A stretch of DNA of 39,583 nt, taken from NCBI GenBank assembly GCA_030682175.1, contig JAUXOM010000133.1:1-39583 (forward strand), written 5' to 3'. Shown here piece by piece: positions 232-38,224 of this stretch. The translations under genes were made by a program, and so were the position numbers. Numbering within the stretch: position 1 is the stretch's first letter; each line of letters starts with the position of its first letter. This DNA is from Rhodocyclaceae bacterium (GTDB lineage: Bacteria > Pseudomonadota > Gammaproteobacteria > Burkholderiales > Rhodocyclaceae). Under the pieces are notes generated by a model. That model did not search any database and was not told where the DNA came from. It saw only the letters and a list, made by a program, of their open reading frames with translations.

Positions 232-253
232 AAAAGTCGGCTCTGGCGGGACG
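232..253 (+). repeat. Dispersed 22-bp motif, copy 1
   Basis: Starts AAAAGTCGG and matches the family consensus (AAAAGTCGGCGCTGGCGGGA followed by CG) with one mismatch, T for G at position 11. It lies 26 bases beyond the zapE stop codon. Confidence 0.75.
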
Positions 254-278
254 AAGTGCCCCGCAGCGGGTACGGCGC

Positions 279-1376
279 TTACGCTGACGGCGCATGCGTC
301 TCGTAGCGGCGGTGTTCGCTGGCCAGGTATTCGTGTGAGCGCATTTCCATCAGGCGCGATACGGTGCGCTTGAATTCACCGGCCTGCGGACCGGCGACAT
401 AGAGTTCCTCGGCCGGTACTGCTGCCGCCAGCACCAGCTTGACGCGATGGTCGTAGCAGATATCAACCAGCCAGGTGAAGCGGCGCGCGGCGTTGGCCTG
501 CTCCGGCCCCAGACGCGGCACGGCCGAGACGAAAACGGTGTGGAAACGGTGCGCGATGTCGAGGTAATCGTTCTGCGAGCGCGGCCCGCCGCACAGCGTG
601 GCAAAGTCACACCAGAGCACGCCGGGCGCGCGGTGAACCAACGGAATTTCCCGCCCGGCCACCATGATTGGTCGCGCATGCCCCGCGCCGTGCGCCACCC
701 GGGAAAAGATTTCCATGAGCCGCACGGCGCTGTCGCCGTCGGCCGGCAGCAGATAGACACTGGCCTGTTCCAGCGTCCGCAAACGATAGTCGATGCCGGC
801 GTCGATCTCGATGACGTCGAGCTTTTCATCGAGCAGGGCCAGCGTCGGCAGCAGGCGTTCGCGCTGCAGTCCGTCGGGATAAAGACCGGCGGGCGGATAG
901 TTCGAGGTGATGCAGAACAGCACGCCAGCGTCGAACAGCGCCTGCATCAGGCGCGCGAGAATCATCGCGTCGGCGATGTCGGCAATGTGAAACTCGTCGA
1001 AGCACATCAGCCGCGTTTCCCGCGCCACCCGTGCCGCCACTTTTGCCAGCGGATCGGGAGCGTGCTTGTAGGTCTGCAAACGCTCATGCACCTCGCGCAT
1101 GAAGGCATGAAAATGCACGCGCCGTTTGCGCTGGTAAGGCACGGCAGCGAAAAAACAATCCATCAGGAAACTCTTGCCGCGCCCGACCCCGCCCCAGAAC
1201 CAGACCCCCTTCGGCAAGGCGGGATGCACCAGCAGCTTGCGCAAACGGGTGCGCCGCGCCGCCTTGAAGGCGACCAGTTCGTCATAGAAAAGCTGCAGGC
1301 GGACAGCAGCAGCCTGCTGCGCCGCGTCGGCGACGATGCCGCGCTCGGCCAGCGCGGCAGCAAAAGCGCGAATCAT
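279..1376 (-). CDS. zapE: Cell division protein ZapE (AFG1-like ATPase)
   Basis: P-loop ATPase of the AFG1/ZapE family, about 365 residues, the normal length. Walker A GGVGRGKS is at residues 62-69, Walker B LMCFDEF at about 124-130, and a sensor-like ITSNYPP follows. In E. coli the family acts at the division ring, and AFG1 relatives help with mitochondrial protein quality control. It commonly sits right after lpdA in betaproteobacteria; here a toxin-antitoxin pair separates them. The ATG at 1376 gives the family-like N-terminus. A TTG at 1415, three bases after the vapC stop, would add 13 residues. Neither start has a clear Shine-Dalgarno site, so translation may be coupled to vapC. Confidence 0.9.
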   Translation of the reverse strand: MIRAFAAALAERGIVADAAQQAAAVRLQLFYDELVAFKAARRTRLRKLLVHPALPKGVWFWGGVGRGKSFLMDCFFAAVPYQRKRRVHFHAFMREVHERLQTYKHAPDPLAKVAARVARETRLMCFDEFHIADIADAMILARLMQALFDAGVLFCITSNYPPAGLYPDGLQRERLLPTLALLDEKLDVIEIDAGIDYRLRTLEQASVYLLPADGDSAVRLMEIFSRVAHGAGHARPIMVAGREIPLVHRAPGVLWCDFATLCGGPRSQNDYLDIAHRFHTVFVSAVPRLGPEQANAARRFTWLVDICYDHRVKLVLAAAVPAEELYVAGPQAGEFKRTVSRLMEMRSHEYLASEHRRYETHAPSA

Positions 1377-1418
1377 GCTGTCTGGCGGGACGTTGAGAAG
1401 GCGGTGGGCAGACAAGGA

Positions 1419-1814
1419 TCAGACGGAAAACGGGTTCAGCACCGGAATACCGCAGCCGGCGAAATCGTCCGTGTTGCGCGTCACCAGCGTGAGGGCGTGG
1501 ATTTGCGCGGTGGCGGCGATGAGCATGTCGGGCTGGCTGCGGACGACGCCGCGGGCGGCAAGGCCGCCGCGCAGTTCGCCGGCGCGCTGGGCGATTTCGG
1601 GGGTAATCGGCAGCACCAGACATGTCGAGAGAAAGGTATCGAACGCGGCGGCGATGCGCTGGTTTGGACGCCAGGCGAGACCAAAGCTGATTTCTTCGAC
1701 GGTAACAGCGGAAACAAGATAATCATTCGCCGTCTCCGACCAGGCAAGCACGCCACCATCCGGCCGCGGGCGGAAAAACTCGCTGACGATATTGGTATCA
1801 AGCAGCACGCTCAT
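1419..1814 (-). CDS. vapC: PIN-domain toxin, VapC/FitB type
   Basis: A 131-residue PIN-domain protein, predicted to be the ribonuclease toxin of a type II toxin-antitoxin pair. The acidic metal-binding residues of the family are visible: D6 in LLDTN, E40/E41 in TVEEISFG, D96 in QPDMLIAATA and D116/D117 in RNTDDF. The ATG start overlaps the end of the antitoxin gene by 17 bases, so the two are translationally coupled. The RNA target cannot be read from the sequence. All catalytic positions are intact, so the toxin is likely functional. Confidence 0.88.
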   Translation of the reverse strand: MSVLLDTNIVSEFFRPRPDGGVLAWSETANDYLVSAVTVEEISFGLAWRPNQRIAAAFDTFLSTCLVLPITPEIAQRAGELRGGLAARGVVRSQPDMLIAATAQIHALTLVTRNTDDFAGCGIPVLNPFSV

Positions 1815-2118
1815 GAGGAGCGCCCTCCTCGCATTCTTCCAGTATGGCTACAAAGGCGTTAGGACGGCCAGCGGCGGAACGTGGCAGTGTCGGCAATTCA
1901 TAGTTGTCCTCAGCCGCGATTCGCCGCAACTCGGCAAACACTGCGCCGAGCGTCTTGTGTTTGGCGGTCTTGCGCCATTCGTCGAAAGCCTTGAAGGTTT
2001 CGGCATCGATCACCGCGGCAACACAACGATCGCGGTTGTAGATCATTTGCGGTTCCTCAACTGACAGACGAACCACTTCGGAAAACTGCTGCTTGGCTTG
2101 GGCGATGTTCCAGGACAT
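1798..2118 (-). CDS. Antitoxin of the VapC pair, Phd/YefM type
   Basis: A 106-residue protein whose N-terminus (MSWNIAQAKQQFSEVVR) matches the Phd/YefM DNA-binding antitoxin fold. The C-terminal half, rich in charged residues, would wrap the toxin. The start at 2118 is chosen because AAGGAGG lies a few bases upstream; an in-frame ATG further up (2160) falls inside the operator palindrome and lacks such a site. Antitoxins of this family bind palindromes in their own promoter, and a perfect one lies at 2133-2171. Confidence 0.87.
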   Translation of the reverse strand: MSWNIAQAKQQFSEVVRLSVEEPQMIYNRDRCVAAVIDAETFKAFDEWRKTAKHKTLGAVFAELRRIAAEDNYELPTLPRSAAGRPNAFVAILEECEEGAPHERAA

Positions 2119-37081: not shown

Positions 37082-38049
37082 TGACCCCGCCCACCGGCCC
37101 CCGCTCCGAACCGCCCGCCCTGGACATTTTGCCGCCCTGCCCACGCCTGCTGATCGTCGATGACCAGCCCATCAACATCCAGGCGCTCTACCAGGCGTTC
37201 CAGGACGATCACGAAGTATTCATGGCCACCAGCGGCGAACAGGCGCTCGATTTCTGCCGCCGCGATCCACCCGACCTGATCCTGCTCGATGTGATGATGC
37301 CGGGAATGGATGGACTGGAAGTCTGCCGCCGCCTCAAGGCTGACTCTGCCACCGCCGATATCCCGGTCATTTTTGTCACGGCCCAGGAAGATCCGGCGGA
37401 CGAAACCCGCGCTCTGGAAGCCGGCGGCGTGGACTTCATCATCAAGCCGATCAACCGGGCCGTGGTGCGCGCCCGGGTGCGCACCCATCTGACCTTGAAA
37501 GCCCAGGCCGACCTGCTGCGCAGCCTCGCCTTCATCGATGGCCTGACCGGCGTCGCGAACCGCCGGCGCTTCGATGAAAGCCTTCACGTTGAATGGCGCC
37601 ACTGCCGGCGGGGTGCGATACCGCTGACACTGATCATGATCGACATCGACCATTTCAAGCACTACAACGACCTGTATGGCCATCAAGCCGGCGACGCCTG
37701 CCTGCAGAAGGTTGCCGCCGCCATCCGGGCGGGCCTCGGCCGCTCCCACGACCTGGTGGCGCGCTACGGCGGTGAGGAGTTTGTCTGCCTGCTGCCCGAT
37801 TGCGCCCCGCAAGGCGCGGCCCGCAAGGCCGCAGCGCTGCGCCAGGCGGTCGCGGCACTGGACATGCCACACGAATCATCGGCAACCGCAGCGCAGGTCA
37901 CCATCAGCGTAGGCGCCGCCACCTGCATCCCTGACGCCAATACCAACCCTGACCAGTTGCTCGCCGCAGCCGATGCCGCGCTGTACGCCGCCAAGACCGG
38001 AGGGCGCAACCGCGTCTGCGAGACCGTGCTTGGCAAGCTGGCACATTGA
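37078..38049 (+). CDS. Response regulator diguanylate cyclase (REC-GGDEF)
   Basis: 323 residues. The receiver domain (about 20-135) has phospho-acceptor D71 in LILLDVMMPGMDG. The GGDEF domain (about 150-320) has MIDIDHFKHYNDLYGHQAGD, GGEEF at 231-235 and the inhibitory RxxD at R222-D225. It overlaps the hybrid kinase by ATGA, so phosphotransfer from that kinase's Hpt to D71, switching on c-di-GMP synthesis, is the simplest reading. A small inverted repeat follows the stop. Confidence 0.94.
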   Translation: MMTPPTGPRSEPPALDILPPCPRLLIVDDQPINIQALYQAFQDDHEVFMATSGEQALDFCRRDPPDLILLDVMMPGMDGLEVCRRLKADSATADIPVIFVTAQEDPADETRALEAGGVDFIIKPINRAVVRARVRTHLTLKAQADLLRSLAFIDGLTGVANRRRFDESLHVEWRHCRRGAIPLTLIMIDIDHFKHYNDLYGHQAGDACLQKVAAAIRAGLGRSHDLVARYGGEEFVCLLPDCAPQGAARKAAALRQAVAALDMPHESSATAAQVTISVGAATCIPDANTNPDQLLAAADAALYAAKTGGRNRVCETVLGKLAH

Positions 38050-38050
38050 C

Positions 38051-38085
38051 TTTCATGATCGGCGGCGAGCGCCCCCGATCATGGA
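38051..38085. repeat. Inverted repeat after the REC-GGDEF gene
   Basis: CATGATCGG (38054-38062) pairs with CCGATCATG (38075-38083), starting directly after the stop. No T-run follows, so it is a weak terminator at best. The TTTCATGAT end resembles the arms at 39387-39435. Confidence 0.55.
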
Positions 38086-38202
38086 AACGCCCGCCCCCCT
38101 TTGTGCGCCGCTGGCCAAGCGCGGCTTCAGCCGCGCCGGCAAGCCCGGCACGTTGCAGGTCAACTACGGCTTGCTCGCCAATGCCATCGTCCTGCGCCAG
38201 TT

Positions 38203-38224
38203 GAAAGTCGGCGCTGGCGGGACG
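38203..38224 (+). repeat. Dispersed 22-bp motif, copy 6
   Basis: GAAAGTCGGCGCTGGCGGGA then CG, one mismatch to the consensus, in the gap before the alpha/beta hydrolase gene. Confidence 0.78.

Follow-up and report, generated by a model that had tools for sequence, protein, structure and literature searches.

Short uptake sequences have been described for the Pasteurellaceae and the Neisseriaceae (PMC7811141, in the part consulted). For the uptake signal sequence (USS) of Haemophilus influenzae, gaps were found in 115 of 474 alignments (24%), and insertion was rejected by the authors as the origin of USS (PMC1626085). The Neisseriaceae possess dialects of the DNA uptake sequence (DUS) and the receptor ComP, some of their genomes carry no obvious DUS, and in Simonsiella overlapping DUS pairs occur in dyad symmetry (all from a part of PMC3630211). 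Here, a dispersed motif was analysed in a stretch of 39,583 nucleotides from a Rhodocyclaceae bacterium (contig JAUXOM010000133.1; hereafter the window) as well as in the remaining host genome and in its relatives. Searches of a library of open-access papers listed none on a motif of this kind in Rhodocyclales. An original prediction made from the window had pointed to six dispersed copies in both orientations, and all six were recovered, three per strand, compared with 0.01 matches expected for the reported motif at up to 3 mismatches (100 dinucleotide shuffles, largest shuffle 1). Judged by its sequence properties, the motif probably represents, with some reservation, a new uptake-sequence-like (USS/DUS-like) family in Rhodocyclaceae-type bacteria, because it is long, constrained, strand-balanced, apparently mostly substitutional in origin, common at gene ends, variable between genera and missing from many relatives. 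Evenly balanced is the further-reaching view that Rhodocyclaceae-type bacteria independently evolved a third system for recognising their own DNA in natural transformation, in which a long tag in two parts (AAAGTCGGCGCTGGC-nnn-ACGGCG), genus dialects and tag-free relatives occur and which would imply a tag-specific receptor.

In the host genome (3,493,354 bases in 153 contigs), 636 sites matched the 17-mer core AAAGTCGGCGCTGGCGG at up to 2 mismatches, 320 of them on the forward and 316 on the reverse strand, whereas the reversed pattern used as a control yielded 2. Hundreds of copies on both strands, far above expectation, are a trait of uptake sequences, and the genome-wide count that had been proposed as a check shows such an excess. 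The 24-mer AAAGTCGGCGCTGGCGGGACGGCG was searched in a sample of 811,289 bases consisting of 40 host stretches and the window, where copies with 0, 1, 2, 3, 4 and 5 mismatches numbered 30, 54, 38, 26, 15 and 15, respectively, and the reversed 24-mer appeared once over this range. Exact 24-mers are therefore fewer here than those with one mismatch, whereas perfect cores outnumber singly mismatched ones among H. influenzae USS (PMC1626085, in the part consulted). The top over-represented 10-mers of the host and of the relatives G019 and G026 derive from the motif, with none of those in the motif-free congener G006. The exact 22-mer was also present in 43 viral contigs, twice in two of them; these could be phage or host DNA. 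Even spacing of the sites was rejected, the coefficient of variation, calculated for 48 sites of contig C7 from gaps longer than 200 bases, being 0.89 and thus barely below random.

The conserved unit comprises 24 to 25 bp and is sharply bounded, with the form (A)AAAGTCGGCGCTGGC-nnn-ACGGCG. Across 103 host sites (at most 3 mismatches, 438 kb), conservation extended from the A-run to the end of ACGGCG, and the flanks were random. For the analysis of the two parts, sites were picked by the 15-base core AAAGTCGGCGCTGGC alone at up to 1 mismatch. At the 161 host sites obtained in this way, the bases of the tail ACGGCG were kept at 95, 88, 95, 81, 81 and 80%, and the three spacer bases in front of the tail at 80, 75 and 72%. 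The contrast was sharper in G019 (27 sites), with 96, 62 and 48% for the spacer and 92, 100, 100, 88, 96 and 96% for the tail. Mismatch positions along the motif were not uniform. A single unit forms no hairpin, its fold being no more stable than those of shuffled sequences (z -0.26), so that its description as not clearly palindromic was right. A terminator hairpin was rejected likewise, since shuffled sequences fold as well as the third window copy together with its flanks (z -0.11).

Conservation above the flanking DNA, a further trait of uptake sequences, was observed both in the host and in its relatives. With identities averaged by site, the motif reached 0.86 and the flanks 0.76 at the 12 host sites (higher in the motif at 10 of 12, p 0.03), compared with 0.96 and 0.81 at 28 sites of relatives (higher at 27 of 28, p 4e-5); the sites were chosen for at most 2 mismatches in the query and not in the partner, and the loci of relatives may overlap.

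The distribution of the motif is patchy. Within the genus (19 genomes including the host), 127 to 504 sites at up to 1 mismatch to the 17-mer were counted in 18 genomes and zero in G006, while other families of the order, represented by 24 genomes, yielded at most 4 per genome. A sample of the family (249 genomes, 68 genera) contained six rich genera (g1, g2, g9, g62, g70 and g88), the exceptions within these being one g2 genome with only 12 sites and G006 of g1 with none. Among the remaining sampled genera, five had 6 to 17 sites and the others 0 to 5; low-copy or motif-free genera form the majority. The few copies read in low-copy genera are often matches to the complete 24-mer, which is how relics or imported DNA would look, and odhB as their sole source was rejected, no odhB match being found in 30 loci (L161-L190). 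The one-contig genome G017 held 111 exact sites, 46 forward and 65 reverse. Dialects in related genera are another trait of uptake sequences and were found in several genomes: in G026, position 9 is C or T and an additional A precedes the motif, and G019 favours A after the tail. Among the matches listed, the variant AAAGTCGaCG occurred in 9 of 9 sites of G086 and AAAGTCaGCG in 3 of 3 sites of G154, one of the latter without the tail. These sites were detected as one mismatch from the search pattern, and the shared identity of the mismatch was not imposed by the search. In 7 fetched G086 sites the base before ACG was G, T, A, T, T, A and C, with ACG itself present in 7 of 7.

As is characteristic of uptake sequences, copies were located between genes and also, in various frames, inside them. 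Of 148 sites (at most 3 mismatches) in the 811-kb sample, 78 were in genes predicted by our own codon-usage script, 63 were intergenic and 7 overlapped a gene end; for H. influenzae USS the in-gene share is 65% (PMC1626085). All six frames were used by the in-gene copies, read as KVGAGGTA (27), AVPPAPTF (24), RRPASADF (16), KSALAGR (7), SRRWRDG (3) and PSRQRRL (1). The DNA rather than the peptide is what is kept, as the original prediction had held from two copies. Several intergenic copies lie at the same gene end across species while the DNA beyond differs.

The origin of the in-gene copies was analysed with G006 as outgroup, in which 0 sites at up to 3 mismatches were found in the 685 kb fetched. 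Out of 30 alignments made, 29 were analysed; L123:27 (4 gap columns) was dropped because its flank was too short. No gap column was present inside the motif in 18 of the 29 alignments, and in 13 of the 19 with at least 50% identity to G006 over the whole alignment; the net length of the motif plus 12 residues to each side was unchanged in 11 of 29. Ungapped examples, named by what we take the genes to be from recognition rather than from a family search, are an RsmI-like protein (GFLPA-KVGARRTA, G006 GFLPA-KAKSRQAE), a MutL-like protein (KRRLASADF, G006 KRRLPAADF) and an epimerase-like protein (ALARRLASADF, G006 ALARRLAAHDY). Within the genus, 165 comparisons had both flanks aligned: the motif was shared in 135, 19 differed without large gaps, 10 had 6 to 14 gap columns and 1, in an odhB linker, had 15. 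This set includes pairs of two relatives, and many of its non-shared pairs are odhB linkers. In a second within-genus set, in which overlapping loci of relatives were left unmerged, at least 10 gap columns in the motif occurred in 0 of 40 and 0 of 28 pairs, and the motif was missing in 4 and 1 pairs, respectively, with short indels near or in it. A target-site duplication was not detectable at k=2-9 in 147 sites, and no clean 25-bp empty site was found among the aligned within-genus pairs, with odhB (+8 residues) and a UvrD-like gene (+9) as possible exceptions. In-gene copies thus appear to arise mostly by substitution, though not all of them fit this pattern.

If the motif is an uptake sequence, a surface DNA receptor would recognise the genome-wide tag during natural transformation, and cells would prefer DNA carrying it. 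Chance mutation would build a tag, recombination would then replace untagged alleles by tagged ones, and the biased exchange would keep the tag in the genome. Under such replacement, substitution would be expected to be the main way in which tags accumulate, on either strand, between genes and in whichever frames are tolerated. The motif resembles Pasteurellaceae USS in its apparently substitutional origin in existing coding sequence and in its strong consensus (PMC1626085). With Neisseriaceae DUS, as described in the part of PMC3630211 drawn on here, it shares the occurrence on both strands, in and between genes, genus variants, tag-free relatives and some inverted pairs, whereas it has another sequence, 24 bp instead of a 12-mer and a lower density. 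Read in reverse, the tail (GCCGTC) is identical to the opening six bases of the 10-mer DUS GCCGTCTGAA, perhaps by chance (same source, in part). If the reading is true, a third lineage, of environmental bacteria with their own dialects and tag-free relatives, would allow the reasons for the evolution of uptake sequences to be tested independently, and would point to a surface DNA receptor of a new, sequence-specific kind.

Several observations weigh against an uptake sequence. The tag is longer than the 12-mer DUS of Neisseriaceae (PMC3630211, in part) and sparse, with about 1 site per 5.5 kb. In the host, conservation of the last three tail bases does not exceed that of the first spacer base; the two-part anatomy therefore rests on ACG and on G019. 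Since 86% of the sampled sequence is coding, intergenic DNA is about threefold enriched in sites (p about 1e-17), and genes shared with G006 are only weakly enriched in them (32 of 77, compared with 32% of coding length, p 0.053). ComEC, a part of the competence machinery whose presence in the host fits an uptake sequence, was found in 55 of 61 genomes, among them the host and the motif-free congener G006, and is therefore uninformative as a discriminator. One or more gap columns fell inside the motif in 11 of 29 alignments to G006, whereas of 999 control positions drawn at random from these alignments 50 were gapped; copies would therefore favour or arise with indels. The gapped share of H. 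influenzae USS alignments is 24% (PMC1626085), although the two measures differ. Relative to G006, extra residues are present at the odhB copy and the UvrD-like copy mentioned above, and five further copies are longer by 16 to 25 residues, of which three lie on a single stretch where another dispersed element adjoins the motif. Finally, arrays and hairpin-forming composite units exist, in which the motif is joined to an inverted partial copy over 41 to 54 bp. One such unit folds at -20.4 kcal/mol (z -2.67), and among 100 sites listed for G017 six pairs were spaced at exactly 54 bp, a spacing also seen in G002. Because of the dyad-symmetric DUS pairs of Simonsiella, composite units do not decide the matter.

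The three options of the original prediction can be ranked on this basis: an uptake signal fits best, with 18 of 29 in-gene copies ungapped and no target-site duplication, a site for another DNA-binding protein comes second and a mini-mobile unit third. For the second, an intracellular protein acting in chromosome organisation, segregation, repair or at gene ends would bind the motif, and ordinary selection would keep it site by site. Such a site would account for a constrained motif with looser inner bases, for conservation above the flanks, for gene-end positions kept while the DNA beyond differs between species and for substitutional origin. It is nevertheless unlikely: hundreds of near-identical 24-bp sites in genes in all frames would not be expected, it would be unusual for a chromosome-maintenance site to be missing from a congener and from most genera, and the relaxed consensus expected of regulatory sites (PMC1626085, in part) was not seen.

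A very small mobile element, copied into new places, would explain the sharp 25-bp edges, the gap excess over the control, the seven copies with extra residues and the tandem, composite and nested arrangements with other repeats. Cyanobacterial small dispersed repeats (SDR) measure 21-27 nt and nest with other repeats; the present unit falls inside this size range and nests likewise, whereas it is mostly ungapped relative to motif-free homologues and unstructured. The mini-mobile unit is ranked third because of these mostly ungapped in-gene copies and of the lacking target-site duplication, and we consider it improbable; no clean empty site was seen (at least 15 gap columns in 1 of 165 comparisons, the odhB linker, and at least 10 in 0 of 68), and the mismatch positions are non-uniform. 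If the motif were an intracellular binding site or a mobile element below 30 bp instead, it would be an unusually abundant example. A repetitive extragenic palindromic (REP) element or REP doublet forming hairpins (REPIN), moved by a REP-associated tyrosine transposase (RAYT), is very unlikely, since in spite of direct-repeat arrays and of inverted pairs that fold well the single unit is not palindromic and 78 of 148 sites, about half, are in genes, while REPs are primarily extragenic (PMC3116915, in the part consulted); an unlikeness to standard REPs had been predicted.

Other repeats were observed as well, several of them next to motif copies. On host stretch L117, near 5510 and 12477, motif copies lie inside a larger unit with the ends ACCACGGTTTCC...GGAAACCGTGGT, which resemble the terminal inverted repeats of a miniature transposon. 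On L306 near 1138, 4313 and 8842 and at L115:12832, the motif is adjoined by a repeat of about 80-105 bp (GGGCCGTCCCAAG...GTGGGGGGCC) that lies within genes and adds 23 to 25 residues relative to G006 in three L306 genes. In the relatives' loci L246 and L152, some motif copies are followed downstream by tandemly amplified units of about 31 bp (GGGACGGCGATAGCCGGAACGCCGCCAACAT). Dispersed elements of about 150 bp (L117:584-734 and L304:18980-19130) have dozens of copies in G008, G009 and G015.

In the window, the six copies differ from the 24-mer by 0-3 mismatches. Three of the original coordinates were about 1 base off. Copy 1 (232-256, forward) is intergenic, has 3 mismatches and lies about 22 bases from the stop of the reverse-strand gene 279-1376. 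Copy 2 (4437-4461, forward, 1 mismatch) is located inside odhB (3630-4928, reverse) and is read as GAVPPAPTF in the linker. Two tandem 27-bp units (4383-4436, forward) starting with AAAAGTCGG adjoin it and correspond to two GGAPTLPTF repeats of the linker; fewer such units were present in the linkers compared from the nearest named relatives. Conservation of the peptide in odhB of relatives lacking the repeat elsewhere had been named as a possible objection. It applies in part, in a comparison covering odhB only: of the 80 named odhB loci compared, the nearest of which belong to Rhodocyclaceae-type betaproteobacteria, mostly metagenome-assembled, 21 carried a site at up to 2 mismatches to the 17-mer.

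Copy 3 (19157-19181, reverse, 1 mismatch) is intergenic, 12 bases past the stop of the forward-strand gene 16535-19144, and occupies the same gene-end position in the relative G013 (L151). Copy 4 (24540-24564, reverse, 0 mismatches) lies inside the forward-strand open reading frame 24351-24917 and is read as RRPASADF, in a different frame from copy 2, as had been stated; the site is retained in six relatives' loci and missing in G006, which has R--VIVEL there. Copy 5 (28957-28981, reverse, 0 mismatches) is intergenic, about 11 bases from the stop of the reverse-strand gene 28993-29784. Copy 6 (38203-38227, forward, 0 mismatches) is intergenic and 67 bases upstream of a predicted start at 38295. 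A position near a stop codon, claimed for three intergenic copies, thus holds at about 11-22 bases for three of the four.

A short repeat (TGCCCCGCATGGGGTACGGCG), which ends in ACGGCG as the motif does and often adjoins it, forms a small array next to copy 5 (28878-28956) and is also present beside copy 1 (248-277). Moreover, the window contains two inverted copies of a 173-nt element (25133-25305 and 29926-30098, 91% alike), of which many more occur across the host genome, and strong intergenic palindromes at 29831-29891, with 26-bp perfect arms, and at 172-210.

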